A DNA stretch of 64,000 nt from Polytrichum commune (taxonomy: Eukaryota > Streptophyta > Polytrichopsida > Polytrichales > Polytrichaceae). The position numbers and the translations under genes are program-made. Numbering within the stretch: position 1 is the first letter of the stretch; the number at the start of each line of letters is the position of its first letter. The notes under the pieces are model-generated. The model had not been told where the DNA came from and made no database searches. It worked only from the letters and a program-made list of their open reading frames with translations. Of this stretch, positions 63-49,201 are shown in pieces. The stretch spans positions 56,355,169-56,419,168 of the forward strand of contig OX485806.1 in the NCBI GenBank assembly GCA_950295325.1. The letters are read 5' to 3'.

Positions 63-3000
63 GTGCAAGTAAAAAAGACAATGAGAAGTAAGGGAGAAAG
101 GGATTCCTTAGCTCCTAACGAGGATGGAAATGGAAGTCCTCGTGTGGCTAAGGGAATGCGGGCACCCACAATTAGAAGAAGCAAGCTTCTTATTGTTGAT
201 CTTGCAGGATCAGAGCGAGTGGATAAATCAGGTATTGGCCTCTTGATTTGACAGACATGGCAATTTTATTTGAGTTGAGGATACTGTGTACGGAGTTATA
301 TCAGGAATATGTGAGAATATTTAGAATTCCACTGACGGGCAAGGCCACTTGATGGAAAAGTTATGCAAGTGGTGAGTTTCTGAGAAGCAAGTTAAACATG
401 ACACGGCACAGGAAGCGAGGGCCATACATTGGAGGAAGCGAAGTCCATCAATCTATCACTGACAGCACTGGGAAAATGTATCAACGCTTTAGCTGAAAAT
501 AGTCCCCATGTTCCCATACGCGACTCCAAATTGACAAGATTATTGCGTGACTCTTTTGGAGGTAAGGATGCACACTCTTACAAAAGGTACTGAAGCTTAA
601 AACTTTAATGTACTTTGATGTAATCTCTGATGTTCCTCCAGCAAGAACATGCTGGTCAGACCATTTAGGTAGATTTTCCAATTTATTCTGTATATTTATT
701 GTTATTAAGATAAACATACATAATCTGCAGGAACTGCTAGAACTTCCTTGGTGGTTACAATCGGACCATCTCCTAGGCACAGAGGAGAAACAACCAGTAC
801 TATCATGTTTGGTCAACGAGTAAGATCGATTCTTCCTCTCCACGGTCATTGGTTGCAGCAGAAATTGTTGACAAAGCGGGAATCTGCCTGAGAGACTCCA
901 GGAGCATTGGGAGATTACTTGCGTGGATTATGTTGAGCTGTTAAAAGTTGGCATGGATGTTGCAGCAGAACTTCCCTAATGTAATACTTTTGAAATTATG
1001 GAAGGCTTTCATATGCTGTTAAAGGTCTTCAAATTTTGAAGAGTAATCCTTTTGGTTGAAATGCAGGCAATGAAAGTGGAAAACATGGTGAGGTTGAAAG
1101 AGGAATTTGACTACAAGAGCCTTTGCCGAAGGCTAGAGGCAGAATTGGATAGACTGGTAGCAGAAAATGAGAGGCAGGTTAAGGCCAGGCTGGAGAGTGA
1201 CGACGAGCTAGAACGAGCTCTTCATGAAAGTCGCCAGATTGTTTATGAAGCTGAGACCCGGCTCCAACATGTCTTAGATGTATGGGATCTTGTCTGACCT
1301 TTTGTTTCAATATTGTGGAGATGGTGAAATGTCTAGACTTTCCTGGCTCTCGCATCTGTTGCAAAAGTGCTCAGCACTGAAAGTCAAGGCCATCTCTTAT
1401 TTCTTACCATTTCGTATGGATCATGTCTTTCAATGTATCTAGATGCGTTATTGCGTATGCTTCTCCCACATAATTCTGATAATTACTTTCTGGATCAAGT
1501 CAACAACTGCAGAAAAAAGTGTATGTGAAAGGGAGGTGGAAGACTTGCGGCAAAAATGTGAGAAAGGATGTGAAGAGGTAGAAGAGCTGCGGCAAAAGCT
1601 GGAGGAAGTGGTTTGTGCTCGAGATAAGCTGCAGGAGGAAGTTGGGTTTCTTGATCTCGAGCGGAAGACGGAGCAACAAGAGGTGAGCAGAATAAACTTG
1701 TCATTGGTATTTAGTATGGTCCCTGGTGCAGATTGTGGAGGGAATGATTCAAGTAAGGGAGGGTCAAGTTGGCTTATTTGGTATGGTGGGGGGAGTGCCA
1801 GCTATGCGGAAATTAACTGCCATGGGAATGGTGGGCATGTGGTACCAGAAGATCACCCATGTAGAGAAGCTGAAGCTACTGAAGGATCTGACGGATGCAA
1901 TGGAGAAACACCAGAAGGAGTTGATAGAGCAAGTGGAGAAGCACCAGAGTGAGCTTGCAGATGCTTTGGCAAATCAGGAATTGGAGCGAGCACACCGCAA
2001 GCGGTTGGAGGACCAGCTGGTCAGCCAACAACTTCAGCTTGCACAGCTTGAGCAGGTGGAAAAAGAGCTTCGAGATGCTGCTCAACCTCAAAGACGCCTA
2101 GAGGTGCTTTCTCCAAATATATATCAAGGAAGATCCACATTGGTATCTTAATGATGTTCAACTGTCAGGGACGTGATATAAAAGTGGGGTTTGTTAGCCG
2201 CTGAATAGACAGATCTAGGTTGTGGCAAAACAATTTGGTGCTCTAATTTGGCTTCGATCCAATGTAAGAAACCCATTGCATGTATAGTGGTAGACCTTAA
2301 ATGTGGATCATTGTAGGACTTTAGGAGGGGGTGATGTGAATAATTTAAGTGGCTCCACTTCTTGACTACGATTACCAAGTAGACAGAGCACTCTTCTCTA
2401 TATGTGATGCAGAGTGCTGGATGAGTACTTATATGTTAGCGATGCAGAGTGGTGACCAGAGTGTGGAAATTACAGAGCTGAGAGCGCTGTTGGAGCACGA
2501 GGTCCAGAAACGGGAGCAGGTGGAGCAAGAACTGAAGTCAGTGAAGACACAATTATCGAAGAGAAGCTCGAATGGGAGCCTTACGCGATTACAAGGGGAT
2601 GAGCTCTTGACTGTGAGGCATAAGCTGGAGGAGGAACTGAAGGTGAGGGAAAAACTGGAGGAAGAAATACGTCATTTGAAGGAGCAAGTGGGGCTCCTGG
2701 GCGAAGAAAATGATGAGGTGCTTTCTGACCTCTTCAATATTTCATCTCAATATTGGACTAGAAGCATCCTTCGTTATTCTGTAAGCTAGTATTCTTAGCT
2801 ATTTTAAGGTGTTCTGGGTCTAGGAGTTCTGCAAAATCAGTGCTTGCAGCTTGCAGGAGACATGATCCACATGTTCTGACCTAATGGTTACTGTCTGTGT
2901 CCAGCCGTCCAGGAGGATGATTGAGAAAGGTGGGTCTGGTAGAAGCTCGCTCTCTGAAAGCCCACGCATCAGCATCACAAAGCCTAACCATATGCGTGAT

Positions 3001-5332
3001 ACCATCAACGGCCAGAGAGCAACCATTGCTAAGCTCTTCGAGCAAGGTAAGGTACATTGGGTTCAACATTTGGTGTTGTTGTTACGTTTAGTTGTTTCAA
3101 TCTCAGAAAAATGAATTGAAGCAATGACGTGGGCTGTGATTATTCTCCAATGGACAAAAACAGTACGGGGGAGTATGGTTGTGGATCCTTTTATCTAACT
3201 GAACGGATGCTTTTGTTACTCAGCCTGAGTCTAGAGTGAAGCGTGATCCTTTGTAATTGGTGGGATGCAGTGGGGTTGCACAAGATTCTATCTTTGTTGG
3301 AATCAGAGGATGTGGATGTACGCGTCCATGCAGTGAAGGTCGTGGCAAATCTTGCAGCTGAAGGTGTTTCTCCTGCCCTTATTGCAGCTTGGCCATAGCT
3401 TGACCTATGGTGGTAATGAAAAGGCTGTGAACTTTTGAAATTGATCTTCGGAGATGGCAAAGTACATCCGTAGAGGCCTTACTGAGAGTATTAGTCCTCA
3501 AGGGACTCCCAATAGATGTCATTAACCGGAGGTCAGAAGAGGATCCTAAACCTGTATAATCTGGCAGGGCTGGGATTCTCCCTGGTTCGTTTCCATGTGG
3601 TATGTAGACAGGGAGACTAGTAAATGTTGTGGCAGTAAATCTAATTGGTGATATACACCTTCAGAGGCAAATCAAGAGAAGATTGTGGAGGCTGGGGGAC
3701 TGGGATCTCTCCTGATGCTGCTTCAAAGCTCAGAAGATGAGACTATCAGGCGGGTAGCTGCAGGCGCCGTTGCCAACCTTGCAATGAATGGTAGGGGTTC
3801 TTGATGACTGATATGACTGGTCTCCTGTTCTTTCAAAGTCCCATTTGGATCTCTGGTTTGAATGGAATCTGTGTCTTAGTTTATGTTTCTGGGGATGCAG
3901 AGACAAACCAGGAGCTTATCATGGCACAGGGTGGTATTGGGCTGTTGGCTCGGACAGCTGATGATGCTGAAGACCCGCAAACCTTGCGAATGGTGGCTGG
4001 TGCAATTGCAAATCTCTGTGGAAATGGTAGTTAGTCCTGACTATCATCCTGGTGTCAACATTTTTCTTTTGTCCTGAATGAATTTGTGTGCTGGACAATG
4101 ATTAGCCCCAACAATGTTCCGAACTTGCAAAATTGCATAAAATGCACAATTTACATGCAACCACACAATTACAAAGGGCTAAAGCATAGAGCGACAGTAT
4201 GTAGGAGAATAAGCTTCATGTGGGTAAAGCTTTGAATAGTGTCTTTTGGTATACTTCTCAAAGGGGAATTGTGGGTTGTCTTTGGGGTGTATGCCAGACA
4301 AGCTGCAACTGAAACTGAGGGAGGAGGGAGGAATTCGTGCACTTCTTGGCATGGTCCGATCACGACACCCTGATGTGCTGGCCCAAGTTGCAAGGGGCAT
4401 CGCTAACTTTGCAAAGTGTGAGTCACGAGGTGCTGCGCAAGGTATGTCCACCATCCATTCCATACAGTGTAATTTGTCATGTCCGATTTGGGGTACTTGT
4501 TCTTTATCAACAATTAACAGACAAGCAAATGTCACGTTTGATCAGTTTTATAATGTGGATGGTGGTGCATGTCTGTGAGTACAGGTTACAAGTTAGGGAG
4601 GTCCTTGCTAATAGATGACGGAGCCCTGCCATGGATTGTGGCCAATGCCAATAATGATGCATCACCCATCCGTCGGCATATCGAACTGGCCCTTTGCCAT
4701 TTAGCACAGCATGGTATGGAATTATGTTTCTATTTCCTCTTCTTTTTGTCTCTCTCCATCATGTCATCATATGACAAGAGAGGTGGCTAGAATTCTGTAG
4801 AAGCAGCTCCCGGCATAAGAATCCATCTAGGCTGTAGCATATTGTGAAATGTCTATCCTCATTTCCAGGGCTCAGAAAGTGAGCTCAACATGTAAAGTAA
4901 TTATCCTGACATAAATAAAAAGTGTACCATGGAGGGTTTGGTAAAAACATATACTCTAAAGTGCTACAACTTGCCATTTGGAAATCAAGTTAAGAGGTTA
5001 AGCTAACATAAACTGGAGTAGTTGTAGTATTCTCTCTGGGCTTCATGGTCCTGGTGGTTAGCTGCAAGTCTCTTTGTTTGAAACAGAAGTCAAAGCCTGA
5101 GATAAATTAAACTTATAGTGATGACCAGGAGCAGGATTGGATGCGACTAATAGCAGTGATTTAATTTGCAGAAGTGAATGCCAAAGATCTTGTTGCGGGT
5201 GGCGCTCTGTGGGAACTGGTACGGATATCTCGTGAATGCTCAAGAGAAGACATTCGAAATCTTGCCCAACGCACTTTGAATGCAAGTGGTACTTTCCAAG
5301 TAGAGTTGAGGCGCCTTCATCTAGTCTATTAA
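63..5332 (+). CDS. ARK (KIN-U): Armadillo-repeat kinesin (KIN-U / ARK family), 3' part of a multi-exon gene; 5' end lies outside the window
   Basis: This is a plant-type kinesin with a C-terminal armadillo domain; family members are microtubule motors acting in tip growth and cortical microtubule dynamics. Exons read from splice sites and frame: 63-231, 412-561, 731-819, 1067-1279, about 1500-1682, about 1849-2103, 2448-2717, 2905-3046, 3271-3363, 3665-3790, 3901-4026, 4298-4441, 4585-4713, 5172-5332. The first exons hold the end of the motor: switch II ([16 protein letters not shown]), then [17 protein letters not shown] and [15 protein letters not shown]. Exons 4-8 encode charged coiled coil rich in E, K and Q. 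Exons from 3271 encode about five ARM repeats ([44 protein letters not shown] and so on), one per exon, joined in phase 1. The last exon ends at TAA 5330-5332 after [15 protein letters not shown]. The P-loop is not in the window. The exon starts at 1500 and 1849 are the least certain. No disabling lesion was seen. Confidence 0.93.
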
Positions 5333-7316
5333 GGAAAATTCTTAATTCTTTTCCGTTTAGTATCTGCCACCACCATTTTGTATAATTAGCAGCAGACTGT
5401 TGCAATCATCAATCAATCGCAGCTCAATTGTTGTAGAATTCTCAAGTGATGCCACGAAAGGTCTCTGACAATGACTCTTGTGGGTTCAGAGTTGTCCAAG
5501 CGTTTTTTTCAAAATTGTCATCATGCAAACTTAGGCAAGTCGAATAGGGATTGTGATTCAATAGTTTTCAAGAATTACAGAGGTGAACAATTCAGTTTAC
5601 AGAAGCCAGAGTGTCGCCTAAAACTGAGATGTGCTACATCTTTATCGAAAGAGTAATGAATCTACTTCACCCGTGGACGGACTAGATGGGTTTGGTATGG
5701 GTTGTGTACAAAGCTTCTATTTGCATATTGACAGGCTTCGACACAACTGGACGGGATGATTTTGTTCTGTTGGTTTTCCTGGAATCGCACCAAACGATAA
5801 ACCATAACTCCAAATATTAGTGGGTCATGTATGTTTCATGCTCGTCACCACAAACAACCAAGTTTCTGCAAGGTTCGCAGTGAAGGGCTCTTAAGGACGT
5901 TGCACACTATTGACATATGTGTACATACATTGAACAAATGCCAAACGAACATACCATGTACTTTAAGTGCCTAGGTTGCATATATCATCAGCTAGCGAGG
6001 GAGGAAGGCACTACACGGTGACAGGACCATATAAGAAAGTCATTGTTCATAGAACTCCGCCATGGCCACGGGATTCATGTCAGTAAGATCGGAAATTTGT
6101 GGTACTCAAGTAATGTCATTTGGTAATCAAAAACCGGATGAGTCCAACAAGAAGCTTGGTTTGGGAAAGTGCATCCGAGTTGGCACGTAAGCACCCCTTA
6201 TACCCTCCTCATCCACTCCCATCAACTCCTAGCAGGATATGCTTTAGGATGGTTTAGGCCTATTTTAAAGCTCTCATTAGTTGTCACCTCTTGGAAACGA
6301 TGCAAAACGTACATGTAGCATGTGGATAAGTGGCTATGATGACAGACATCATTTCTGTGATAATTTGGAGAGAATAAATTATTGCATTACAAGGGTACCT
6401 CTCAATCCATCCAGCAAAAAACCTTCATCCCCTATGGTTTGTTGCCGATTCATATCAGATGAATTGGAATTATGGTCTTTGAAGTGAATTCTGGTGTTGA
6501 ATCGACTAAAAATAGAAAATACTGCATTATATTCTATTTCAGGGCTTTTATTCTGGATGGATGTTAGGTGCGCTTGTATGCCATAATCCCCTTTCTCCTG
6601 GTAATGTTTAGTTATTCACTAATGTTCGGTTATATGGGCAGAGATTTTAACATGTTTGTAAATATCAAAATTAGAAACACATTAAGTTTTGATCAAATTC
6701 AAATTTAGATGTAACTTGTATATATTTTAGGAACTGTAAAGTTTGATGTTTGAATCACAAACTGAAATTTGATTGATTATATTTCAATAACTTTACTATC
6801 CGCCCACATTGATTTTTGAAGTACTTGTAGGTACCAGAGGAGACAGTAAAAACAATTGTAAAACGTGTTATTATGAATAAGATATCACTTTGGATAAGAT
6901 TTCTTGCATTGAAAAATTACAATTTTTGACCATAGCTTATCTTACTATGGTCATCCAGAATTTCAATTTCTATTTAAACATTTTTTCTATTTTAACCCTT
7001 CCTTCTACATTGACTTTAAAAATTCAGTGTTTTTAATCTCGTTCTGTTTACAATTATGTTTGTTATCTATTTACTATCTTATGATCTTCACTCACCACAA
7101 CAACATGAATTACAATGTCATCATTCAATAAAATAAGTTCAACACAATATGTAAGGTATGTGGACCTTAAGTGCTCACTGTTTTGATACAAATTATTGCT
7201 TAAAGGGTGCTCACAAGAACATTGGACCTTGTGATAAAATATTTAATTGCCATTTTTGGTTTCATCATTATACATTAAGATCTTCTATACAATCACTTAA
7301 AGAAAAAGGAAGTCAT
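5333..7316. other. Downstream of the kinesin gene: 3' UTR, then AT-rich intergenic DNA
   Basis: The kinesin 3' UTR must lie in the first few hundred bases, but no clear polyadenylation site can be fixed by eye. The rest is AT-rich with many stops in all frames. I saw no domain, repeat array or RNA gene. Confidence 0.6.
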
Positions 7317-7318
7317 TA

Positions 7319-8554
7319 CAGTCTAACCTCGTTAGTACGACACTCGTTAAGACGACACCCTCGATATTACGACACATTTTTGCGCGACCAAACTTCTTAG
7401 TTCAAAACTCCCTCTTTTAGACGACTATGACACTCGATAATACGACACTTAGAGCGTGCATTTTGTCATATTAAAGAGGGAATAAATGCTAAAATTCCTT
7501 TCATCCATGATATGTACATCTAGAATACATCCATTTTCACTTGGGAACTACTTGAGAACTTCACTTATCATTGGGAACTTAATGATAATTAGGGTTAGAG
7601 GGGCCTCCTCTCTAGTATGTGTCCTCCCCCCCAATGTGACAAGCGTAGTGCAACCTTTGGATCAAGGTATAATAGCATCTTTCAAAATTCAATACAAGAA
7701 GAAACTTTTGCAGTGGGTTTTGTCACAATATGATGATGCTACATTGAAGGACTTAAGGAAGGTGGTGCCCAATATCAGACAAGCTATCATGTGGAGTTAT
7801 GAAGTATGGAGTGAGTTGGATGCACAAATAGTCAGGAATTGTTGGAGGATGGCGCGTATATTACCTGCAACATGGAATGCCGATTTTGCCTTAGTTGATG
7901 AAAGGGAGAAGAATAGAATGCGAGAAGAATCAGATGAACTTGGTGCTCTGATTTCAAAATTGCGATTGGGTGATGATGAGATGTCTATCGAGACTTATAT
8001 TCAGATGGAAGGGGAAGAGATTACTGAGCTAGAATTGACAACTGATGAGTTGGTGGATGCCGCTTTGGGAGTCAATCATGCACAAGGCTTTGATCTTAAT
8101 GTTGATTTGCATTCAGTAGATGTGGATGATGTTGCTCCACCTACAATAAAGCTTAGTGATGCTAAACATCATGCATCATTGTTGTCTAATTTCTTATTAG
8201 ACAACTCTTTACATTTTGGTGTTAATGAAATTATTAGTTTTCAAAAGCTAGTAGGGAATTTAGAGAAGATGACAGTTGCTAACTTAGGTAGGCAACACCA
8301 GAGATCTTTGAACTCTTATTTCAAGAGTTCTTGAGAATTTTTGTATTTGTTTGGAGTTATAAGTTATTATTTCATACACTTCCTAAACCCTAAATTCAAT
8401 GTATATGGTTTGAATCTCATATTTCTTATGTTTTTGTATTCCCTCGATAGTACGACAATTTTAGGCCATTTGTCATATTAACGAGAAGACGACACCTTGA
8501 TAATACGACCATTTTTGCGTTTCCCAAAGGTGTCATACTAAAGAGGGAGAACAG
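7319..8554 (+). mobile_element. Tigger/pogo-type DNA transposon, internally deleted, copy 1 (1,236 bp)
   Basis: The element is bounded by a TA target duplication (7317-7318 and 8555-8556), as in the Tc1/mariner-pogo superfamily. The left end reads CAGTCTAACCTCGTTAGT. The right end, read inward on the other strand, is CTGTTCTCCCTCTTTAGT, giving imperfect terminal inverted repeats of about 25 bp. The subterminal DNA repeats a short ACGACAC motif several times at each end, a plausible transposase-binding array. Only one ORF lies inside (7486-8334), carrying the C-terminal part of a transposase. The missing N-terminal half makes this a non-autonomous deletion derivative. A seemingly identical copy lies inverted at 15444-16679. 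Confidence 0.88.
7486..8334 (+). CDS. C-terminal fragment of a Tigger/pogo DDE transposase (282 aa), copy 1
   Basis: The recognisable block is LPPNVTSVVQPLDQGI at about residues 48-63. This is the pogo/Tigger/jerky motif that carries the third catalytic acidic residue (the D of PLDQG). Full-length relatives have about 450-600 residues, with an N-terminal CENP-B-like helix-turn-helix pair and two earlier catalytic aspartates. None of those are present. The residues before the motif look unrelated, so the internal deletion joins sequence just upstream of VLPPN. The C-terminus is acidic (about residues 145-230) and ends RSLNSYFKSS. The ORF is intact and identical in the inverted copy. It cannot be an active transposase alone; whether it is translated is unknown. 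Confidence 0.8.
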   Translation: MLKFLSSMICTSRIHPFSLGNYLRTSLIIGNLMIIRVRGASSLVCVLPPNVTSVVQPLDQGIIASFKIQYKKKLLQWVLSQYDDATLKDLRKVVPNIRQAIMWSYEVWSELDAQIVRNCWRMARILPATWNADFALVDEREKNRMREESDELGALISKLRLGDDEMSIETYIQMEGEEITELELTTDELVDAALGVNHAQGFDLNVDLHSVDVDDVAPPTIKLSDAKHHASLLSNFLLDNSLHFGVNEIISFQKLVGNLEKMTVANLGRQHQRSLNSYFKSS

Positions 8555-8556
8555 TA

Positions 8557-15065: not shown

Positions 15066-15443
15066 AGGAATAGAGTTAGAGTACCTTACCTTATTCACGA
15101 CAATCGGCTACATGAGAGCTAGGTCCTTTGTATCTTCACCATTTTGGAATATAAGAACTTCAAGCTCGACCCTTCATCTTAGTTATTCAAGGTAGAGACA
15201 AAGTAATTGATAGCATAGACATCATCAAATTGATTGTGTTTGAGAGAGTCGATGAGCATCATGTATAGAGACTCACATGAGGTGAGATAGATATATGTGT
15301 CGAAAATTAAGTATGATTGAATTAAATAAGACTCCCAAGAAGTTGAGAGGCAATATATGAAGAGATAAATTATGAGGTAAGAAAATGCAATTGTGTAAGT
15401 GATGAAAGATTATACAAACTCACATGAGGTGAGGATAGTTGTA

Positions 15444-16679
15444 CTGTTCTCCCTCTTTAGTATGACACCTTTGGGAAACGCAAAAATGGTCGTATTATCA
15501 AGGTGTCGTCTTCTCGTTAATATGACAAATGGCCTAAAATTGTCGTACTATCGAGGGAATACAAAAACATAAGAAATATGAGATTCAAACCATATACATT
15601 GAATTTAGGGTTTAGGAAGTGTATGAAATAATAACTTATAACTCCAAACAAATACAAAAATTCTCAAGAACTCTTGAAATAAGAGTTCAAAGATCTCTGG
15701 TGTTGCCTACCTAAGTTAGCAACTGTCATCTTCTCTAAATTCCCTACTAGCTTTTGAAAACTAATAATTTCATTAACACCAAAATGTAAAGAGTTGTCTA
15801 ATAAGAAATTAGACAACAATGATGCATGATGTTTAGCATCACTAAGCTTTATTGTAGGTGGAGCAACATCATCCACATCTACTGAATGCAAATCAACATT
15901 AAGATCAAAGCCTTGTGCATGATTGACTCCCAAAGCGGCATCCACCAACTCATCAGTTGTCAATTCTAGCTCAGTAATCTCTTCCCCTTCCATCTGAATA
16001 TAAGTCTCGATAGACATCTCATCATCACCCAATCGCAATTTTGAAATCAGAGCACCAAGTTCATCTGATTCTTCTCGCATTCTATTCTTCTCCCTTTCAT
16101 CAACTAAGGCAAAATCGGCATTCCATGTTGCAGGTAATATACGCGCCATCCTCCAACAATTCCTGACTATTTGTGCATCCAACTCACTCCATACTTCATA
16201 ACTCCACATGATAGCTTGTCTGATATTGGGCACCACCTTCCTTAAGTCCTTCAATGTAGCATCATCATATTGTGACAAAACCCACTGCAAAAGTTTCTTC
16301 TTGTATTGAATTTTGAAAGATGCTATTATACCTTGATCCAAAGGTTGCACTACGCTTGTCACATTGGGGGGGAGGACACATACTAGAGAGGAGGCCCCTC
16401 TAACCCTAATTATCATTAAGTTCCCAATGATAAGTGAAGTTCTCAAGTAGTTCCCAAGTGAAAATGGATGTATTCTAGATGTACATATCATGGATGAAAG
16501 GAATTTTAGCATTTATTCCCTCTTTAATATGACAAAATGCACGCTCTAAGTGTCGTATTATCGAGTGTCATAGTCGTCTAAAAGAGGGAGTTTTGAACTA
16601 AGAAGTTTGGTCGCGCAAAAATGTGTCGTAATATCGAGGGTGTCGTCTTAACGAGTGTCGTACTAACGAGGTTAGACTG
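15444..16679 (-). mobile_element. Tigger/pogo-type DNA transposon, internally deleted, copy 2 (1,236 bp)
   Basis: The ends are CTGTTCTCCC at 15444 and GGTTAGACTG at 16679, flanked by TA (15442-15443 and 16680-16681). Length, termini, subterminal ACGACAC repeats and the internal ORF match the copy at 7319-8554 base for base in every stretch compared, in opposite orientation. The insertion lies inside the DNA that interrupts family-3 LTR copy X, so this jump is younger than that insertion. Confidence 0.88.
15664..16512 (-). CDS. C-terminal fragment of a Tigger/pogo DDE transposase (282 aa), copy 2
   Basis: The translation is identical to that of 7486-8334. It has the QPLDQG motif with the third catalytic aspartate, an acidic C-terminal half, and no DNA-binding domain or first two catalytic aspartates. 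Identity between the copies fits very recent transposition of one deletion derivative, powered in trans by a full-length element elsewhere, or gene conversion between the inverted copies. Confidence 0.8.
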   Translation of the reverse strand: MLKFLSSMICTSRIHPFSLGNYLRTSLIIGNLMIIRVRGASSLVCVLPPNVTSVVQPLDQGIIASFKIQYKKKLLQWVLSQYDDATLKDLRKVVPNIRQAIMWSYEVWSELDAQIVRNCWRMARILPATWNADFALVDEREKNRMREESDELGALISKLRLGDDEMSIETYIQMEGEEITELELTTDELVDAALGVNHAQGFDLNVDLHSVDVDDVAPPTIKLSDAKHHASLLSNFLLDNSLHFGVNEIISFQKLVGNLEKMTVANLGRQHQRSLNSYFKSS

Positions 16680-17639
16680 TAATCCAAAAGTTTATGAATG
16701 AAGTGAGTTACTAAGAAAGGTTCATGGAAATTAAGCATTCTTACTTATGGCAAGAGAAATCGGAAGGAGGATGTGTGAAGTTGCATATAAGAATGTTGCT
16801 AATTGAATACGTGTAAATTCCTAAATCATTGTCGCTATGAATCTAAGAGATATCAAGATCTTAATATTAACCAAATCATAATTAGTTCCTTACATATCTA
16901 TCTTCATTCCGCTATCATCCTTCTTATTGTCATAATGATTCTTGAACCTACAAGATCTATGTTACATAAGCATGCGTTTCATTGCCTAATGAATCTAAAT
17001 ATAACAAGTAATATGATTGTAAAAAATGTTAGGATACAAACTTTAATATGATAAGTTGAGTATATGAATACATTACCAATATTATTATTATATTATTTAT
17101 CTTAAAACAGACTGTGGATGTTATAGCTAATGCTTTAATAGAATTAAAAACTTTGCTAATAATGACTTGGGTTCTATTTATACTAGAGTCATAGTACATT
17201 GACTATACAACAATGGGTCGGATTCTAATTATAGCTAAACTAACACACATTATGGGGCCGCACTAAAAACATAGATTGTAATTCACTTATAATAGAGACA
17301 TCACAACAACTATTATGATTGGGCTAAAATTAGACTAATCTATTTAGCTGAGAATCCAAATGACACACAAGGAGAAGAGGATTATTATAAGAGGAATTAC
17401 TAAGTTGAGACAATGACTCAAGAATGCCTCCTCAAAAGTTGATAAGAAAGTGGAAGATTAGTCGAGGCATTACCACACATGTAAAGAGGAAATCTCCTTC
17501 ACATGGGAAGAGATGATCTAACAACCACTTCATTATTGTTAAAATACTATCCACACATGTTTCAACAGGAAGAGGTTCCAATAATGAAAACTAACAATTA
17601 GAAGACTATAGAGGTAAGAGTTGAAAAAAAAAAAATTTG

Positions 17640-18709: not shown

Positions 18710-20402
18710 AAATTTATCATATTAGGAATCCATAATAATTGGCATGGACACGATGCGCTTAACCATTTGTCACGGTATGCGGTGTCGGCGGCCGCATTTT
18801 ATCTGTTGGGTTTCATTCATTTAGATTTGGATGGATAAATCTTAGATGTTGAGAGGGAGGCTCCTAAGTGAGGAGCCTCCCCTTTTGCTTGGCATTCTTG
18901 CCAAGTCAAGTTTTGTGGGTAAGTGTGTGGAGATAGCTTGTGTGAGGTGAAGATTGCATGTTTTTGTAATAAATCTTGAGGTTTTACCCCTTTCTTACAC
19001 TCTTGGATTCTCCTGTAATGGAGTGAGAGATAGCTTGATTCATTGTGTGCATTTGAAGAGAGAATTAAAGTTTTTGCAAGGGTTTGACTCTCGTCCTTCT
19101 CATTTGGCAAGAATGCATTTTTTATTTTTTTTTCTTCTTCATTCTTGATATATAACACGTAAGAAAATGCATAAGAATAAGGAGTGGTGAAATTACGGAG
19201 TATTGGAGCGAGAACACCACAGATTTGCGGAGCAACAAGAAGAAGAATGCTTGCTTGTGAATGCCACATCAAGGTGAATTGTGGTGATGAATTATTGAAT
19301 TATTTACGGAATTTCTTGTCATCTGTTCGCTTACAAGCTTGAATTCATATCATTGAGCTTGTGAAAAGCATTATTGATTTCAATTCAAGTTCAATTTCAT
19401 TAAAAAAAAATCAAACAAAAAAAAATGAGAGAGAAGGAGAAGGAGAAGCGGAGGAGCTCCTGTTTTTTCAGGTGCACCGGCGGCACGCGGTGTCAACCCG
19501 CAGCACGCAGCGACGGCCGGCCCCCCTGCCCCCCCACCTTACCTTCCCCTCCTACCTACCCCTACCCTTACCTAGTCCCAACCCCTACCTAGCCTACCCT
19601 CCTAGGTAGCCTACCTAGCCCAGCCTACCCCCCTCCCCCCCTCCCTATCCTTAGCCCCCCCCCCGAGAGTTGACCCCCCCTGGGCCCTGCCATAGCAGGG
19701 TCGGTTGTTGGCTGGCAGGCAGGCAATAGCCCCCCCTTCCATTTTTTTTAAATTAAAATTAAAAATATTGTTTTCTTTGTTTTTAATTTTTTTTTCTTAA
19801 CCCCATACTTAAAAAGGTCAATTACCAAAAAAGAAAAAGAACAACAAAACAAATAAAAATCAGAGGTGTTCATTGGAGGGCATCCAATACCAAATTGGCG
19901 AAGTCTTTGCCAAGGAGATTTTCATTGATTAAGAATGGAAATGCGAAGATTTGGGACAATCTGATGCCGCCATTCATAAGTACCTTATGAGAACTTAAGG
20001 TATTTGGGTTGCGGAAAATGCAAGTATCGCAAGGAAAATTTGCGGGAGCATTCGGGAACAGGCGGAGGGAGTGGGATTGCAGTGAATGTGTAATTGGCTT
20101 ATTCTTCCACCACATCGGATTATGGTGAGGTACTTGGCAAAAGATGGGGTTTTCATTTTTTTTTGCTTAAAAATAAAATAAAATAAAAAACAATTAAACA
20201 ATCATATAGTTATTTCTTGGGGACGAGTCGTAGGCATTGGGATTCATTTGGAGATATGTGTAGGGGATTGCCAAGGATTGGGTGAATTGGAACATGGAAT
20301 CACCATTCAATTTAACAAAATAATTGTTAAGATTGAATTATGTTTGGAAACACAAATTCTGAGCATTTTTGGGAGGAGAGAATTTTCATGTTGTAGTGGG
20401 GG
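18710..20402. other. Gene-free stretch with a C-rich low-complexity block
   Basis: About 19480-19735 is strongly C-rich, with repeated CCTACC and CCCCCC runs. It is flanked by A/T homopolymer-rich DNA (19740-19860, 20150-20200). No coding sequence or transposon ends were recognised. Confidence 0.5.
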
Positions 20403-21760: not shown

Positions 21761-22499
21761 ATGAGAGATGTGTTTATGTGTAATTTCTTTTTCAAGGCAA
21801 CATAGATGTTTTATATTTGACCACCAACTGCAGGCAAGTACCGGTTGTGTGCAGTTAATTTTTATTTTTGCTTAAATGTTGTTTGGGGAAGAGGATCCAG
21901 TGTTGTAATTATATTGTTTTTTGTATTTCGTCGTGGTACCTTTCCCCGTGGCGGACTATGTTGTTGGCAATTGCCAACTTGTCCCATTTTGTGTTGTATT
22001 AGTTTGTGATAGGGTATTATGAGGGTAAGGTCGGAGTGATGACTAATGGGACCCTTGTGTGTGCATCAAGTGGGCGGTGCTTGTATTATTTCATGGTGAA
22101 ACTAGAGTAATGACCAGCAGACCATAGGTTGGTGGTGATTGCAAGTGCATGTTGCATTTTTATTTTATCTTGACACCAAAATATCGTAATTTATTGGCTT
22201 CAGTCACCATATTCATTATGGATTTATGGTTACAACTCGGAATCAACATTATCGTTCGCCATCTCCAGGAGCATCAAAAGGTCGATCATCGGACCTCTCA
22301 GATGTTGAACCAATGGTAGCACCGGACGAGGCTTTTCAGCTTATTTCGGCGTGGGGGACTGCCACTCGGTTAATTCAATAAAAGAATAAAATTAAACTTT
22401 CACAGCCAACCTCATCTAATGATTCACTAGCCTCTACGGGTCCAGCCTATCTCTTAGATGTAGCTGTACGACATGCTCGCTAGCATCGAGGCATTCGAC

Positions 22500-23150
22500 T
22501 TGGCGTCGTACATATGGTCAATGATTCCAGCATTTTCGTGGTCAGTTGGCCTGGGGGCAACACTATTCGAGTTGCTTCCCAGTGTGTGATGATGAATTCG
22601 GAAGGCACAACCTATTATGATTGGCAAAAAACTTGCATAGGAATTGCGGTGGATGGCCGACGACTTGGCTCCTTGCCCATTTACCATCGTTACATCCTTT
22701 GGCCACGTGAAGCGGACCACTAATTATACTCGAGAGCCACTACAGCTTAGCTTCCGAGTAAAGCCTAGAGATCCATCCGCACCACTTCTTCTCAAGTGTA
22801 CGGTCAACTATGACATTTTAGTTGGTCAGCAAACACTTTATTTTCTCGGTTTTGATTTGGATAACTGGACTGAAGAGGCGTGGATCTGACCATGTTGGTC
22901 GGCTAGGGATGGCCGCAGGGAACGTATTCTTGTGGCATTCACGGCCGCTGCTACCATAGCACCATTATTCATGGTTTTTGGGTGTGGTGCATTCATTAAT
23001 ACATTGCCCTATGATTCTGTATTATTGGAGGAGTCACTGGCATTGATGGAGAGTGCAGAGGGTCAACGGGAGATGGCACCTCAAAGTGCATTGGTGCGTC
23101 ATCCCAAGGATCCTCTTCCTCCTTGGTGTAATACCACAAAGCTACTCTAG
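22500..23150 (+). pseudogene. Protease-like (retropepsin) region and linker of the methyltransferase-bearing element
   Basis: The stretch after 22644 contains NYDILVGQQTLYFLGFD, which resembles the end of a retropepsin (a YDVLLG-type strand), then LDNWTEEAW. A catalytic DTG/DSG triad was not found, so the protease call is inferred from position and this one motif. A frame change lies between about 22640 and 22720. In-frame stops are TGA 22887-22889 and TAG 23148-23150; earlier ones are TAA 22379-22381 and TAG 22481-22483. The linker (about 22930-23150) is rich in small residues and runs into the methyltransferase. Confidence 0.5.
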
Positions 23151-23234
23151 CAATGTGAGGACGTTATCATCTCTTTCAGTTCTACGACACCGGTCATACT
23201 GGATAGTCCATCGACCTTAGTACACCCCATCTTG

Positions 23235-24295
23235 TGGCACCCGCCGGACAAGGGGATTACTTTGGTGGAAGTGTTTGGGGCATCGGAATAGGATTGGCAG
23301 CTATGTTGGAGGCTGGCCTCACGGTTTGACGGTATGTCTATGTGGACAACAATCCAATGTCCACCTGTGTAGCTCGTCACAATTTCCACCAGTTGATGGT
23401 GTTGTACCTACAACAGTTACACCCGCCTGCCATTCGTGGGTATTTTGCACGTCTCCCTCATGATGTTACACTTATGAATGAGACAGACTTACAACATTTG
23501 GGTCGAGTAGATATGGTGATCGTGGGATGGCCATGCCAGGGCCAATCCCGTGTTGGAGCAGGCCGAGGTCTAGAGGATCCCATGTCTAGTCTATTATGGG
23601 ACCTCATCCGGCTCATGCAGTGGTGGTTTGTCCACCAACCTTCCTCTCCAAGGTATATCTTTGAGAATGTACCTTTGTTGGGAGACTCTAGGGCCAAGGT
23701 GTTGGAAGGCCAACATTATGTTTGTCAACACCTTGGAGATCCCATTTTTGTGGATGCTGCAAGCCTTGGTTCTTATTCCCACCGGCCTCGGTGAATTTGG
23801 ACGTTATTCACTTTGGCTGCAATATTTTATGCAGTGCCTCCACCTTTTGATCAAAAGGTGGATGACATCTTGGATCCAAACCAAACATTTTTGTCAGTTG
23901 TTTGAGATGATTTATTCCCATTGGTATTGGTCAACCAAGTGGGGACACCACGGAGGGCCTTCCCCACTTTCATGACGTTTCCATAGTTATTCGCATTCCG
24001 CAATCGAAGGCCGGGTATGGTGTGGGATGCTCACACCAAAACCCACACCGAACCATTGGTTGACGAATGCAAACGTGCTATGGGATTCCACACTCGCACC
24101 ACCGCAGCTACTGGCATTTTTGAGGGTCAACAATGCTTCGTGTTGGGCCAAGCCATGGATCTTCAAATCATGATGTCGACTGTAGGTTTATGCTTTGCAT
24201 TGCAACGACATTATGATGACCAATTGTTATCTTTGGGGGCAGAGGACTTTGGTCAAGGGGCACAATGGTCCAAAGGTCATGGCTGGAGAAGCTGA
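23235..24295 (+). pseudogene. C5-cytosine DNA methyltransferase domain inside the gypsy element (broken)
   Basis: About 350 codons show the C5-methyltransferase motif order. Motif I (AdoMet site) is LVEVFG followed by IGLAAMLEAG, with a one-base deletion between them near 23272. Motif II/III is YVYVDNNPMSTCVARH. Motif IV is GWPCQGQSR with the catalytic Cys codon at 23534-23536. Motif VI is IFENVPLL (about 23660-23680). Motif VIII is HRPR (ending 23791). A motif IX-like ECKRAMGF (about 24065-24090) and a motif X-like VLGQAMDL (about 24138-24165) follow a region of about 90 residues that would be the target-recognition part. Stops: TGA 23327, TGA 23792, TGA 23903, TAG 23984. The family transfers methyl groups to cytosine C5. 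No PWWP, BAH or UBA domain is seen. Subfamily (DNMT3/DRM-like or other) cannot be set by eye. Confidence 0.87.
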
Positions 24296-24670
24296 ACGAA
24301 TCTTTCGATTTGAACAACATGTGATGGAGGAGCTTCAAGCTCAACGGGTTTATACTGCTTTGGCTTCTTCACCTCTAGCGGTGGCTTCATCTTCACATAT
24401 TGGTAGTGATGAAGAGGGGATAGTCTCTATTGCTAGCACGGAGGTTGGGGGCATGGTTAATGTCCCTCCTCTTAGTAGCAGTTAGAGTCCATGCCAACAT
24501 CAGGTGGTTCCTTTTTTATGGAGAGGGAGACCACATAGTTTGATGATTGGCCATTGGAATCAGGCCCTCATCTCATTGGTGTTGGGGCACGGAAAGTACG
24601 AGCATTTATTCGCTCGTACTGTAGGTGTTTTGTTTTTAGCCTTTAGGATCTTAAAGATTTTAAAGGAAAA

Positions 24671-24743
24671 TAACACCATATTCAAAATTTTGGGAAAATT
24701 CCATGATTTTAGGAAATCTCCCAAAATTTCGAATATGGTGTTA
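24671..24743. repeat. Near-perfect 25-bp inverted repeat (hairpin) between methyltransferase and reverse transcriptase
   Basis: 24671-24695 (starts TAACACCATATTC) is the reverse complement of 24719-24743 (ends GAATATGGTGTTA) with one mismatch; the loop is 23 bases. The right arm is in frame with the reverse-transcriptase N-terminus, so the left arm looks like an inverted local duplication of it. Confidence 0.75.
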
Positions 24744-27700
24744 AATCCATCCACATTCAGTTGGAGGATGACCATCCCATTTTTCAGAGACCTCACAAGC
24801 TCAGTGTTACTGAGAGGATTGGCGTTCAGGCTCATTGTCGAGAGTTCTTGGCAACAAAACTAATAGAACATTCCAACGGGAAGTATGCTTATGCTACGAT
24901 TATGCCATCAAAGAAGGATATCTTTGGCAATTGGACGGATAAGCGGATGTGCAAGGATTACCGTCCAGTTAATCGGAAGACCAAGTTGGATCGGTATTCC
25001 ATGCCAATCCCCGAGGAGTTGTTTGATGCCATCATATTTTCTCGAGTCTTTAACACCCTAGACTTGAGATCCGGCTATCACCAACTCCCATTACTTGCGG
25101 GAGATAGAATAAAAATTGCATTTTGGGGGGTTAATCATGATGGGAAAGATTAATTGTACCATTGGAAGTTTCTTCCATTTAGCCTCAAGAATGCACATAC
25201 TCAGTTTCAAAGACTGATGGACCAAATCCTCTTTGGCTTGCCCTTTGCTTGGTATTATGTGGTACTTTTGGGCCACCCCCTTTCGAGGGAGCCTAAAAGT
25301 ATCACACAAGCCCTTCGGTGAAGGTGGCCTGCATTTGCAGGCGCCCAAGCCGAACCCGGATGATAGGTGTATAACATGAGTAGTTAGATTTTTAAGGGAG
25401 ATTAAATATGCGTCGTAGTACCTCCGGAGGTTAGGCCTTAGTTTTTTACTAGTGTGGCTTTAAACTCCACTAACCAATTTCATATCTAGTTCTAACCTTA
25501 ACCTACAACCTATTCTACGCGCAGACGCACCAGCCTTGAAACCAAGGCAATCCTAATTTGTGAATTGGGATGGTTCTGATACACCCAACCGGGTGTGACT
25601 CATACCACCCTAACTCAACGAACGGAATAACGACAATTTGATGGACCATTCAATTCTTCCTATTTCTTTATTTAGTTCTATTTAGTTTTCTAAGCGGGGG
25701 AACTTGGCCTAAGTCCCACCCTTCACACAAATTCCTTCTTAATTACTTACTTTTGTTTGCACGTCCTAACTTACTACATTAACATATTAGGCATCACCCC
25801 TTACCTCGGGTCTCTTGCCAACAAGGGTTTACGATTTATTTTGTATGTTTTGATTGTTAAATGTGTTTACACTGGATAGACCACGAAATGCAACTCAATG
25901 GGACCAGGGTGACGGGCGACCTGTAGGTTCAACCTGTTGCGCAATCTTCATAAATTGGGGCCATTACTCCCAATCTATGGGGCCAACAACATAATAGTGG
26001 ATTCGCGGGTCATTAACCCCACCTTTCCACCAACAACATTCAGAGTGGTCGTGTCGGTGATTAATCCGACTTACCACACACGAAACTTGCTAATAAATGA
26101 AGCTACTACCACAAAACATACCAAGGGCCCCGAAAACAATGGAATTGGGTACTCCCTTGGCGGTCAAGTGGTCAAGCCACTTGACCTTACGAGATAGGTG
26201 AGTGGGTTTAGAAATGCGTACCTTAGCCGTGCTCCCTCCAATCCTAAATGGAAGGCTTAAGGTTAGTTAATTTACCTCAATTTTCCTCGGTTGATTTGGG
26301 CTTGATGTAGGCCGAGCCGCTACCTCCTTCCTTGCTCCACTTTCCGAGCGTCGACCTTGCCTCCTTCTTTGTAACTAGTTTGGTAGTAAGCGTACCTTAG
26401 TTAACAATTAAAATATAAAGTGTTATTCTGCCCTGTAATTTAATCCTAAGCATAATATTTATACTTAGTGCACCAAATTATCTTTCCAATGATCTAAAAA
26501 TCACTCTAATCGGATAAGAAATGCAAAAGTTATGAGGGTTGGAAGTGTGAGGTCGATTCAACCGACCCTTCCAACCCACCTATCTACCTTCTAACTTCAA
26601 AAATTCATAGCACATTCCTTACTACTTGGATCTAGGCTTTCCTTATACCATTGCAAAGCTATGAACAAGCTCTAACTAGAAAAAATTATGACATCAGCAG
26701 GTTAAGCTAATAGAAATTCAGCGGACTCCTTGTAACACAGCAGTCAATCAAGAAGGCTTAAACTATGTATCTCGCCTTCAACAATTCATATCTAATTCAA
26801 ATCTTAGTCAAATCAAACGTTCTATATGACCCTGGAGAGATATTAAAAAGATGTATTTGATAAAAATATGTGATTAGAAAGGTAAGCCGAAGTGAACCCA
26901 GCAGGTCCTCTGTAATGCAGCAGTCAACCAAAAGTTCTCAAACTATGTGTCCCATCTTGCACAATTCATATCTAATTCAAATCATGCTCAAATCAAATGT
27001 TCTAAGCCATTTTGGAAAGCTACACAAAAGTTCTACTTGGGAAAAATATAATTTCTTGGAATTAAAATTCCTATTGGGCTCGCAGGTCTGATCCAGCAGC
27101 CGCTACCCACAAGACCACCCAGTTTTTCTACTCCATCTTTGAAAATCCATAACTAATTGTCATCTCAACCAAATCACAAATGGGAAACGGCTATGGATAG
27201 CTATATGAAATCTCTCTAAGAGAAAAATGATAAGTATCTTGTTCTAGCTTTTGAACTAAGCCTTCAGGGCATTGGCAGATGAGGTCTATAATGCCTCTAC
27301 TCAAAACTCTACCATCCAACCTACCTCTACAAAAGAAGGAATAATTTTGTTGGTGTGTTAATAAACACACAACCTAACTAGGAGAGAGAGAGTAGAGGAG
27401 GTTCTCAAGCCTTTCTTTTAGACCATTGAGAATACATACAAAAGGATTTTTTCCTAACTACATTGAAGCAGGGCTTCGCCCAAAAACTAGAGAAAGAGAG
27501 AGAGCTACAAGGTGGAAGGAGGGGTTTTTAAACCCTCTCACAAAAGGGTTGGACCCCTCCTCCACCGGATCCATTTTTCAAACCCTTTCCCGAAATTTTG
27601 GCTCGGGGGTTTTCCCGGTTGAGGTTGCCACCCTCTCGCCGAGGTGGCTCCGACAAAAAACCTTTAGAAATCTTTCTAATTTTTCCGTCATCGAGTTGGC

Positions 27701-28240
27701 AAGGGGGCAAGTGGGCAAGTATCCCCCTTGCTCTCTTTCTTTTTTGTCTTCAAAATTCTTCACGCCGATTTTATCTTCTTACGTAAAACACCTCCAATAG
27801 TCTTGTGTGCCTCACACTAACTAATAAACTAACACTTGCTTAGCTAGCATCTACTAACATTTGCTTAATAACTAGCATCTACTAATATTTGCTTAGCTAG
27901 TTGTTTTTACTAGCTAGCATATTTTTTCTACTTTGCTATCTTCTAGCACTACTTAGTTTCATTTTGACCTTCCTTCTTCTAGGCTAAATGCTAAATGAAC
28001 TAATTTTTCCTAAATTCCCTATCAATTCTAACTTTTAATGCTAACATTCTAACTAAAAGTGATCCCGCAGAGTGGTGGACCACTCAAAGGGTTTACATAT
28101 TACATTGATGACGTGATTATTTTGAGAAAAATACCATAGGAGCATGTAAGGCATCTACAAGTTGTTTTTGAGCGGTTGCGGTGGGGACTGCGCTTGCACC
28201 ATGGCAAGTGCAAGTTTTTCCATGATTGACTAGCATATCT
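24731..28240 (+). pseudogene. Ty3/gypsy reverse transcriptase, split by a solo LTR and broken by stops
   Basis: The left part (to 25257) reads IQLEDDHPIFQRPHKLS, then CKDYRPVNRKTKLDRYSMP, NTLDLRSGYHQLPL (catalytic D in LDLRSGYHQ) and LMDQILFGLPFAW. The right part resumes at 28098 with the catalytic box YIDDVII, then HHGKCKFF and LAYLGH. Removing 25258-28097 plus one TATTA copy rejoins the frame exactly at the codon before YIDD. Stops: TAA 25151-25153, TAG 28137-28139, TGA 28227-28229. This is the chromovirus/gypsy-type RT fold that copies element RNA into DNA. Its place directly after the methyltransferase shows that both belonged to one polyprotein-like unit. Confidence 0.9.
25258..28097 (-). 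mobile_element. Family-1 solo LTR, copy A (2,840 bp), inserted in the reverse transcriptase
   Basis: On the plus strand it runs from TGTGGTACTTTTGGGCC to AAGGGTTTACA, flanked by a perfect TATTA duplication (25253-25257 and 28098-28102). The coding direction of the family (from the full element at 41837-52041) is minus, so the LTR begins TGTAAACCC at 28097 and ends AGTACCACA at 25258. Length and internal landmarks match the two LTRs of the full element with no indel seen. The only difference noticed is T at 28094 against C at 52038. Recombination between two LTRs leaves such solo copies. Short ORFs inside (for example 25937-26197, 27426-27800) are conserved only because the LTRs are young; I do not call them genes. 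Confidence 0.93.
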
Positions 28241-28710
28241 AGGTCATATGATTATTCCAGGCGGTCTTGGGGCGTAGCAAGCTAAAGTGGACGTTTTGCA
28301 AAAGATCTCGGCACCGATTGATGTGCCGAGACTTCTTGCTTTTTTGGGCTTGGCAAATTATCATCGTCGATATGTTAAGAACTTTAGTTTGATCGCCAAG
28401 CCTCTCACCGACAGGAAACTTTTTGCTTTTTCAAAAAATCTCACGAGCAAGGACCAAAATTGGACTTGGGGTCGTGAGCAACAACATGCATTTGAGATAT
28501 TGAAGCAGAAACTGGGTGCGGTTCCAATGCTTTGACATCCGGATGTCTCCAAATACTTCCAGTTGCATACAGACTGGAGTTCATTGGATTTGGGAGCAGT
28601 TCTCACTTAGAAGGATGATTTTGGCTGGGAGTATGTTGTTGCTTACGCTTTGCAAAACAATAACACGGCGGAGGCCAATTATTCGTCCTACGAGGAAGTT
28701 AGTGGGTAGA
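28240..28710 (+). pseudogene. RT connection and RNase H start of the gypsy element (truncated)
   Basis: The connection domain is clear: FLGLANYHRRYVKNFS and IAKPLTD, followed by EILKQKLGAVPML. The RNase H start has LHTDWSSLDLGAVL with its first catalytic D, and continues WEYVVAYA to NYSSYE near 28700. Stops: TAG 28275, TGA 28533, TAG 28608, TAG 28707. Downstream RNase H and integrase are absent; the element is truncated next to a short-period tandem repeat. Confidence 0.82.
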
Positions 28711-41836: not shown

Positions 41837-44651
41837 TGTGGTACTTTTGGGCCACCCCCTTTCGAGGGAGCCTAAAAGTATCACACAAGCCCTTCGGTGA
41901 AGGTGGCCTGCATTTGCAGGCGCCCAAGCCGAACCCGGATGATAGGTGTATAACATGAGTAGTTAGATTTTTAAGGGAGATTAAATATGCGTCGTAGTAC
42001 CTCCGGAGGTTAGGCCTTAGTTTTTTACTAGTGTGGCTTTAAACTCCACTAACCAATTTCATATCTAGTTCTAACCTTAACCTACAACCTATTCTACGCG
42101 CAGACGCACCAGCCTTGAAACCAAGGCAATCCTAATTTGTGAATTGGGATGGTTCTGATACACCCAACCGGGTGTGACTCATACCACCCTAACTCAACGA
42201 ACGGAATAACGACAATTTGATGGACCATTCAATTCTTCCTATTTCTTTATTTAGTTCTATTTAGTTTTCTAAGCGGGGGAACTTGGCCTAAGTCCCACCC
42301 TTCACACAAATTCCTTCTTAATTACTTACTTTTGTTTGCACGTCCTAACTTACTACATTAACATATTAGGCATCACCCCTTACCTCGGGTCTCTTGCCAA
42401 CAAGGGTTTACGATTTATTTTGTATGTTTTGATTGTTAAATGTGTTTACACTGGATAGACCACGAAATGCAACTCAATGGGACCAGGGTGACGGGCGACC
42501 TGTAGGTTCAACCTGTTGCGCAATCTTCATAAATTGGGGCCATTACTCCCAATCTATGGGGCCAACAACATAATAGTGGATTCGCGGGTCATTAACCCCA
42601 CCTTTCCACCAACAACATTCAGAGTGGTCGTGTCGGTGATTAATCCGACTTACCACACACGAAACTTGCTAATAAATGAAGCTACTACCACAAAACATAC
42701 CAAGGGCCCCGAAAACAATGGAATTGGGTACTCCCTTGGCGGTCAAGTGGTCAAGCCACTTGACCTTACGAGATAGGTGAGTGGGTTTAGAAATGCGTAC
42801 CTTAGCCGTGCTCCCTCCAATCCTAAATGGAAGGCTTAAGGTTAGTTAATTTACCTCAATTTTCCTCGGTTGATTTGGGCTTGATGTAGGCCGAGCCGCT
42901 ACCTCCTTCCTTGCTCCACTTTCCGAGCGTCGACCTTGCCTCCTTCTTTGTAACTAGTTTGGTAGTAAGCGTACCTTAGTTAACAATTAAAATATAAAGT
43001 GTTATTCTGCCCTGTAATTTAATCCTAAGCATAATATTTATACTTAGTGCACCAAATTATCTTTCCAATGATCTAAAAATCACTCTAATCGGATAAGAAA
43101 TGCAAAAGTTATGAGGGTTGGAAGTGTGAGGTCGATTCAACCGACCCTTCCAACCCACCTATCTACCTTCTAACTTCAAAAATTCATAGCACATTCCTTA
43201 CTACTTGGATCTAGGCTTTCCTTATACCATTGCAAAGCTATGAACAAGCTCTAACTAGAAAAAATTATGACATCAGCAGGTTAAGCTAATAGAAATTCAG
43301 CGGACTCCTTGTAACACAGCAGTCAATCAAGAAGGCTTAAACTATGTATCTCGCCTTCAACAATTCATATCTAATTCAAATCTTAGTCAAATCAAACGTT
43401 CTATATGACCCTGGAGAGATATTAAAAAGATGTATTTGATAAAAATATGTGATTAGAAAGGTAAGCCGAAGTGAACCCAGCAGGTCCTCTGTAATGCAGC
43501 AGTCAACCAAAAGTTCTCAAACTATGTGTCCCATCTTGCACAATTCATATCTAATTCAAATCATGCTCAAATCAAATGTTCTAAGCCATTTTGGAAAGCT
43601 ACACAAAAGTTCTACTTGGGAAAAATATAATTTCTTGGAATTAAAATTCCTATTGGGCTCGCAGGTCTGATCCAGCAGCCGCTACCCACAAGACCACCCA
43701 GTTTTTCTACTCCATCTTTGAAAATCCATAACTAATTGTCATCTCAACCAAATCACAAATGGGAAACGGCTATGGATAGCTATATGAAATCTCTCTAAGA
43801 GAAAAATGATAAGTATCTTGTTCTAGCTTTTGAACTAAGCCTTCAGGGCATTGGCAGATGAGGTCTATAATGCCTCTACTCAAAACTCTACCATCCAACC
43901 TACCTCTACAAAAGAAGGAATAATTTTGTTGGTGTGTTAATAAACACACAACCTAACTAGGAGAGAGAGAGTAGAGGAGGTTCTCAAGCCTTTCTTTTAG
44001 ACCATTGAGAATACATACAAAAGGATTTTTTCCTAACTACATTGAAGCAGGGCTTCGCCCAAAAACTAGAGAAAGAGAGAGAGCTACAAGGTGGAAGGAG
44101 GGGTTTTTAAACCCTCTCACAAAAGGGTTGGACCCCTCCTCCACCGGATCCATTTTTCAAACCCTTTCCCGAAATTTTGGCTCGGGGGTTTTCCCGGTTG
44201 AGGTTGCCACCCTCTCGCCGAGGTGGCTCCGACAAAAAACCTTTAGAAATCTTTCTAATTTTTCCGTCATCGAGTTGGCAAGGGGGCAAGTGGGCAAGTA
44301 TCCCCCTTGCTCTCTTTCTTTTTTGTCTTCAAAATTCTTCACGCCGATTTTATCTTCTTACGTAAAACACCTCCAATAGTCTTGTGTGCCTCACACTAAC
44401 TAATAAACTAACACTTGCTTAGCTAGCATCTACTAACATTTGCTTAATAACTAGCATCTACTAATATTTGCTTAGCTAGTTGTTTTTACTAGCTAGCATA
44501 TTTTTTCTACTTTGCTATCTTCTAGCACTACTTAGTTTCATTTTGACCTTCCTTCTTCTAGGCTAAATGCTAAATGAACTAATTTTTCCTAAATTCCCTA
44601 TCAATTCTAACTTTTAATGCTAACATTCTAACTAAAAGTGATCCCGCAGAG
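41837..44651 (-). repeat. Family-1 3' LTR, copy B (2,815 bp, lacking 25 bp at its inner edge)
   Basis: It aligns end to end with copies A and C from TGTGGTAC to GATCCCGCAGAG. The final 25 bp of those copies (plus-strand TGGTGGACCACTC to TTCACA) are absent and unrelated sequence (CGCTACGAACACC) follows. The lost end begins within the palindrome GAGTGGTGGACCACTC. Confidence 0.9.
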
Positions 44652-49197: not shown

Positions 49198-49201
49198 ATT
49201 A

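Follow-up and report, generated by a model that had tools for sequence, protein, structure and literature searches.

A DNMT3-like methyltransferase encoded ahead of a putative leaky stop codon in a split-repeat Ty3/gypsy-type retrotransposon family of the moss Polytrichum commune

A C5-cytosine methyltransferase (MT) lies between the protease and the reverse transcriptase (RT) of a decayed Ty3/gypsy-type element in the 64-kb stretch of moss DNA analysed here, which we call the window. Does the enzyme belong to the element, and what would a retrotransposon do with it? The hypothesis at stake is that retroelements put marks on their own DNA as a way to coexist with silencing by the host. As the initial annotation of this locus had stated, retrotransposon-borne methyltransferases are known in print, having been described in dinoflagellates and Klebsormidium (de Mendoza et al. 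2018, PMC5890265). In the passages cited here, a 2019 opinion paper states such elements to be absent from land plants (PMC6338049), and streptophytes and dinoflagellates are still the groups cited for them in 2025 (PMC12344493). We found no land-plant MT-bearing retrotransposon in the literature covered by our search, outside which lay most subscription papers and all preprints.

The proposed C5-methyltransferase signature is confirmed in the window. The stop-free stretch 23342-23791 matches Pfam PF00145 (DNA_methylase) above the cut-off (E=2.9e-9, 37.3 bits against 22), in an alignment that covers only profile positions 48-119 of 324. Motif I (ITLVEVFG, from 23256), motif IV (GWPCQGQ, 23525-23545), motif VI (FENVP, 23660-23674) and motif VIII (HRPR, 23780-23791) were read back on the plus strand in this order. 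Against the Protein Data Bank (PDB), the matches spanning most of the piece are DNMT3A and are weak (E about 0.03); HaeIII and HhaI match over short stretches, with slightly better scores (E 0.005-0.015). The claimed order and identity of the motifs hold, but they do not share a single frame. Motif I ends in a different frame, with a frame slip at ~23279-23282, and the broken, DNMT3-like domain (about 23223-24229, plus strand, placed by PF00145, alignment to open copies and motif read-back) contains four stops, at 23327, 23792, 23903 and 23984. A predicted structure of the stop-free 154-aa piece was discarded (mean pLDDT 33.4), and an Rfam scan of the whole window gave no match.

The remains of the element around the MT run along the plus strand. 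The 5' terminal repeat A (18768-19101, 79-85% identical by blastn to one copy) and the start of the 5' untranslated leader occupy 18768-19345. The remaining leader and the first ~54 codons of the first open reading frame, ORF A, occupy 21761-22370, with the gag start at ~22214 (blastn and tblastn to one copy). After 22370, a deletion has removed the gag body, the CCHC knuckles and a spacer (ORF A residues ~55-659). The protease region (ORF A residues ~660-820) follows at 22406-22889 in two frames with stops (tblastn), and the protease-like stretch upstream of the MT ends in DILVGQQTLYFLGFDLDNW. Beyond the MT lie the frame-shifted linker that leads to the stop (24230-24475, tblastn), the UAG stop itself with CAGUUA, a fit to the type I readthrough motif UAG-CARYYA (24476-24484; sequence read-back, alignment row L001), and the start of ORF B with the N-terminal RT (24479-25257, tblastn/blastn). 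A palindromic insert of about 72 bp sits within the ORF B start (24671-24742, self-inverted match). The RT is then broken by an insertion at 25258-28099 (no strand assigned), a near-identical LTR copy from a neighbouring element (blastn self comparison 99.97-100%; break in the RT alignment), and 28100-28698 holds the remaining RT, with YIDD at 28101-28112 (motif read-back), and part of RNase H (tblastn/blastn). The MT had been placed directly upstream of a gypsy RT with YIDD; the strand and order stand and the directness does not, because the 2.84-kb LTR copy interrupting the RT puts YIDD ~3.8 kb downstream of the MT. No integrase, PHD finger or 3' repeats of this copy were found within the 64-kb window.

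The window copy is old and dead. Its decay is mostly of the C-to-T type, at 27% of CG, 18% of CHG and 9% of CHH positions, compared with 6% for A/T transitions. This spectrum is what is expected of methylated plant DNA; it fits host methylation equally and does not distinguish the source of the enzyme.

In such a copy, the MT could be a chance neighbour, a host methyltransferase gene or its retrocopy that landed in an unrelated retrotransposon, and the different frames of the window MT and RT, with stops between them, agree with such an origin. However, the same order inside one repeat set recurs in open copies and in a second subfamily, and we regard the chance origin as refuted by the open copies. 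A 150-aa window piece gave 457 first-look candidates in the 408-Mb host assembly, which has seven chromosome-sized contigs, and all of the 150 that were scored, window copy included, match it with E values from 2.4e-103 to 7.7e-59. Therefore, the window MT signal is not due to chance. A subfamily-2 query gave 587 first-look candidates, and the 119 places scored all match, being 87-100% identical to the query. Since the place lists of the two subfamilies do not overlap, the host genome holds at least 269 scored MT places, the window included. Between the two subfamilies, the MT is 63-64% identical in amino acids.

The anatomy of the element was read from 20 ten-kilobase copies picked for long open frames. 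In 11 of these, ORF A stays open over 1347 aa or more, and in five of the 20 exactly one stop codon stands between ORF A (1364-1372 aa) and ORF B (1045-1048 aa). ORF A, of about 1366 aa, reads gag, CCHC, protease-like region, MT and linker, and ORF B reads RT, RNase H, integrase and PHD finger. In one open copy, Pfam finds the MT as PF00145 (E 9.7e-11) and, in ORF B, RT_RNaseH (5.1e-37), RVT_1 (6.3e-30), Integrase_H2C2 (5e-17), rve (4.1e-14) and PHD (1.8e-10). The CCHC of this copy scores 17.8 bits, under the Pfam cut-off of 20.8, and Asp_protease_2 reaches E=0.058 in it and 0.0068 in another open copy, both likewise under the cut-off. The element thus has the Ty3/gypsy order of protease, RT, RNase H and integrase (rve) with H2C2, the protease itself being under the Pfam cut-off. 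Placing the MT between protease and RT was correct, as the open copies read, with protease matches of this sub-threshold kind. The genome search for uninterrupted protease-MT-RT frames, suggested with the initial annotation, recovered long-open copies in which a single UAG divides the MT from the RT.

These copies carry the MT and the RT within one repeat set and have target duplications. The repeats are not two ordinary identical LTRs; they are split, in the arrangement A-coding-B-A-B. Repeat A (333 bp, beginning TGTC) forms the 5' end of the element, and the bases after it read ACTTGGCAAGAATG..., a candidate primer-binding region. Repeat B (106 bp, ending GACA), GC, A and B follow 3' of the coding region. 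A 4-bp target duplication was found in nine of the ten copies with both ends available. In subfamily 2, the single copy with both ends read shares this layout and has the target duplication TAGC and a PHD finger. Because copies with ORF A and ORF B share one repeat set and 4-bp target duplications, we read the MT as an integral part of a Ty3/gypsy-type element. The split repeats file the element as a split-repeat relative of Ty3/gypsy, like KnitGypsy-Dnmt3. In 14 copies, some with only part of A inside the fetched stretch, the two members of a terminal repeat pair (A, B) show 0-2.7% divergence, and in three of the 14 they are identical. As judged from sequence, the family includes young copies and has moved recently. 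Two of the ten copies (L024 and L029) have a short form, A-coding-B, which lacks the second A-B and has target duplications. Either B-B recombination or integration at the internal B-GC-A junction would produce this form.

The same copies bear on the class of the enzyme. A profile built from 14 MT domains found 52 PDB sequences with E values of up to 1, and the best 29 of these 52 are DNMT3A, 3B or 3C (best E 5.2e-11). Other matches are DRM-type chains (4.3e-8 on), HhaI (8.5e-5) and DNMT2 (0.0073), and none of the 52 is named DNMT1. The family tree suggested earlier was run in small form, on the DNMT3A and DRM side. In its 23 rows, which gave long-branch warnings and include no DNMT1, CMT, DNMT2 or DNMT5, the element MTs group with DNMT3A and two DRMs and are separated from the 13 bacterial enzymes (96/95). 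By the PDB profile ranking and this small tree, DNMT3 appears to be the nearest of the MT families. A genome-contig scan with the MT alignment returned 13 bacterial loci (25-41% identity over the best segment; outgroup use only), and a viral-contig scan matched 235 stretches, among which tblastn found no relative. The host DRM gene (C2:4703606-4703959, L057; best PDB match DRM2, 1.7e-46) is also a DNMT3-related plant methyltransferase. However, its exon has the rearranged order, with motif X directly before motif I, whereas motifs I, IV, VI and VIII of the element MT are in the canonical, unrearranged order. A search for a host DNMT3 with a DNMT3A fragment gave 148 matches, with element copies and one DRM exon as the top places among the rows inspected; a host DNMT3 split into short exons could escape such a search.

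The IX/X-like blocks of the initial annotation fared less well than the other motifs. The C-terminal part of the MT, with the target recognition region and motifs IX-X, aligns to solved enzymes below significance only. This weak alignment would suit an MT that does not methylate DNA in the living host and has been retained for something else, for example to bind nucleic acid, to methylate RNA or to contribute to the capsid. So would the MT domain of KnitGypsy-Dnmt3, which gave no methylation in yeast, a result its authors call inconclusive (PMC5890265). However, the PCQ, ENV, F-G-G and RPR blocks are retained in the open copies shown, in both subfamilies, and we consider such a substitute role quite unlikely. 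In the same study, CG methylation in yeast was obtained with two DNMT domains of SymbioDIRS (PMC5890265). The SymbioDIRS activity supports MT activity in principle, and the negative Klebsormidium result does not.

Median pairwise dN/dS (NG86, pairs with dS > 0.03, rows open over the domain from a pool of 37, with pairs that share ancestry) is 0.24 in the MT (27 open copies) against 0.72 in the adjacent linker (26). The corresponding medians are 0.14 for gag (14), 0.31 for the protease region (29), 0.11 for RT (13), 0.09 for RNase H (10), 0.26 for integrase (14) and 0.29 for the PHD finger (18). Between the subfamilies, ten MT pairs give pN 0.22-0.24 and pS 0.71-0.78, the latter saturated. These values indicate purifying selection on the MT, and the linker appears weakly constrained in the family. 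The many broken copies, that of the window among them, might suggest that the MT is a functionless passenger in the element. We hold this to be very improbable in view of the contrast between MT and linker, of a pN of 0.23 against a saturated pS when the two MT-bearing subfamilies are compared, and of 15 of the 119 scored subfamily-2 places, which lie within stop-free open frames of 1386 aa.

The place of the MT relative to the stop codon may determine how much of it is made. A TAG stands between ORF A and ORF B in all 34 alignable rows of subfamily 1 (pool of 37; three rows unaligned). It is followed by CAATTA in 27 rows, CAGTTA in six, the window included, and CGATTA in one, so that 33 of the 34 fit UAG-CARYYA. 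In subfamily 2, the three copies read have TAG CAATCA, which also fits. UAG-CARYYA marks the type I readthrough of plant RNA viruses, namely tobamo-, beny- and pomoviruses (PMC5382211), and the moss element shares with it a UAG followed by CAAUUA, CAGUUA or CAAUCA. In these viruses the stop lies in the viral replicase, whereas in the moss element, known from its sequence, it lies between Gag-protease-MT and RT. Conservation within subfamily 1 proves little, because the whole stretch is highly conserved and the stop window takes only the 53rd place among its 234 nine-base windows. As this conservation is unexceptional, the case for readthrough rests on the motif match and on the changes between subfamilies, where the codons flanking the stop differ and the CARYYA match is retained. 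From these we infer that the UAG between MT and RT is leaky; reinitiation or splicing would be the alternatives to readthrough. With a conserved UAG in a type I context, the MT is predicted to be in every Gag-protease product and the RT in a minority. The MT had been taken for a polyprotein product, and it is indeed in frame with Gag-protease in ORF A; the refinement is the conserved UAG before the RT. The conserved UAG rules out the MT as a part of Pol and leaves it on the Gag-protease side of the stop.

Our preferred reading, to which we give a probability of about 60%, is a split-repeat Ty3/gypsy-type family in which a DNMT3-class MT is a regular domain and, made at Gag level, would methylate the element's own cDNA. 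Most ribosomes would stop at the UAG and yield Gag-protease-MT, and a minority would read through and add RT-RNase H-integrase-PHD. Because it precedes a mostly terminating UAG, the MT would be produced as abundantly as Gag, and it would be packed into the particle. It may methylate the double-stranded cDNA of the element at CG sites, and possibly at others, no later than integration; new copies would then enter chromatin pre-marked like host DNA. The PHD finger of the integrase may help to choose the chromatin. Alternatively, the MT may work in trans, with host chromatin or other elements as its targets; it might, for instance, silence competitors or hold back its own spread for the sake of the host. 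Its placement before the UAG would give an excess over RT that such action could use, the at least 269 places could supply a large dose, and host benefit via slower transposition is discussed by de Mendoza et al. (PMC5890265). Nevertheless, location in the Gag-protease frame favours a particle-borne product, and we consider action in trans unlikely. A land-plant family of MT elements that has many young copies, and whose enzyme precedes a putative leaky stop together with Gag, makes the hypothesis of self-marking testable.

In both subfamilies, the PHD finger is C-terminal in the integrase ORF (L023, ORF B residues ~992-1034; L058), and its best PDB relatives include CHD4, PHF12, KAT6A, KMT2D, DPF3, ATXR5 and UHRF1. 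Several PHD relatives of this set bind unmodified H3K4, which serves as a lead only. Many plant Ty3 elements have a chromodomain at the integrase C-terminus, the place that the PHD finger takes here.

Judged from its published description, KnitGypsy-Dnmt3 of the charophyte alga Klebsormidium nitens comes closest among known elements, and it is described as having Gypsy-type domains, a Dnmt3-class MT inside the element, a DIRS-like repeat arrangement and an MT likewise under purifying selection, with Ka/Ks < 0.2 (PMC5890265). By that text, and compared by description only, its MT is in the Pol polyprotein ORF, whereas the moss MT precedes the UAG. SymbioDIRS-Dnmt3 of Symbiodinium is described as sharing the Dnmt3-class MT and the A-coding-B-A-B repeats (PMC5890265). 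In contrast, it is a DIRS element with a tyrosine recombinase and has MT and RT in one ORF, whereas the moss element has an rve integrase, 4-bp target duplications and a UAG between MT and RT. A broader and more tentative proposal, which we think doubtful as a whole, is that a split-repeat Ty3-like lineage already had its DNMT3-type writer before land plants arose, or moved between algae and mosses, with a Gag-level particle MT before a leaky UAG that marks its own cDNA and a PHD reader on the integrase. If true, such a retroelement would supply a chromatin writer together with a chromatin reader.

The remaining observations concern the host and the surroundings of the window copy. Contig C8 (146,561 bp), which is large for a moss plastid contig, carries psaA and psaB side by side. 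The psaB product scores highest with chains 8htu, 6l35 and 7ksq of the moss Physcomitrium patens (1701-1705 bits), followed by 9lut (1667) and by a set of chains, seed plants among them, at around 1620-1630; counted by eye, it departs from 8htu at about a dozen of 734 residues. Together with the DRM gene and the putative armadillo-kinesin gene of the window, this ranking points to a land plant, most likely a moss, as the host. On contig C4, which carries the window, 38 of 51 listed subfamily-1 places lie beyond 41 Mb, against 7 of 23 for subfamily 2. This excess may reflect a ranking bias toward window-like copies, or a low-recombination, perhaps sex-linked, region keeping old copies. The neighbouring element whose LTR copy is inserted in the RT of the MT element occupies 41837-52016 and is young, with 2.8-kb LTRs (41837-44651 and 49202-52016) that are 100% identical. 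Its 1346-aa minus-strand frame can be read as gag, protease and an end that resembles an integrase tail; no RT was recognised, and the neighbour is probably a non-autonomous Ty3-type element. A 1242-bp inverted repeat (7315-8556 and 15442-16683, 100% identical) has in each arm a 282-aa frame that, by reading, looks like a pogo/Tigger-type transposase. A second inverted repeat, of 829 bp, lies at 56120-56947 and 58980-59808 (99.9% identical). Finally, exon-like pieces of a putative armadillo-repeat kinesin can be read on the plus strand at 1443-4578.
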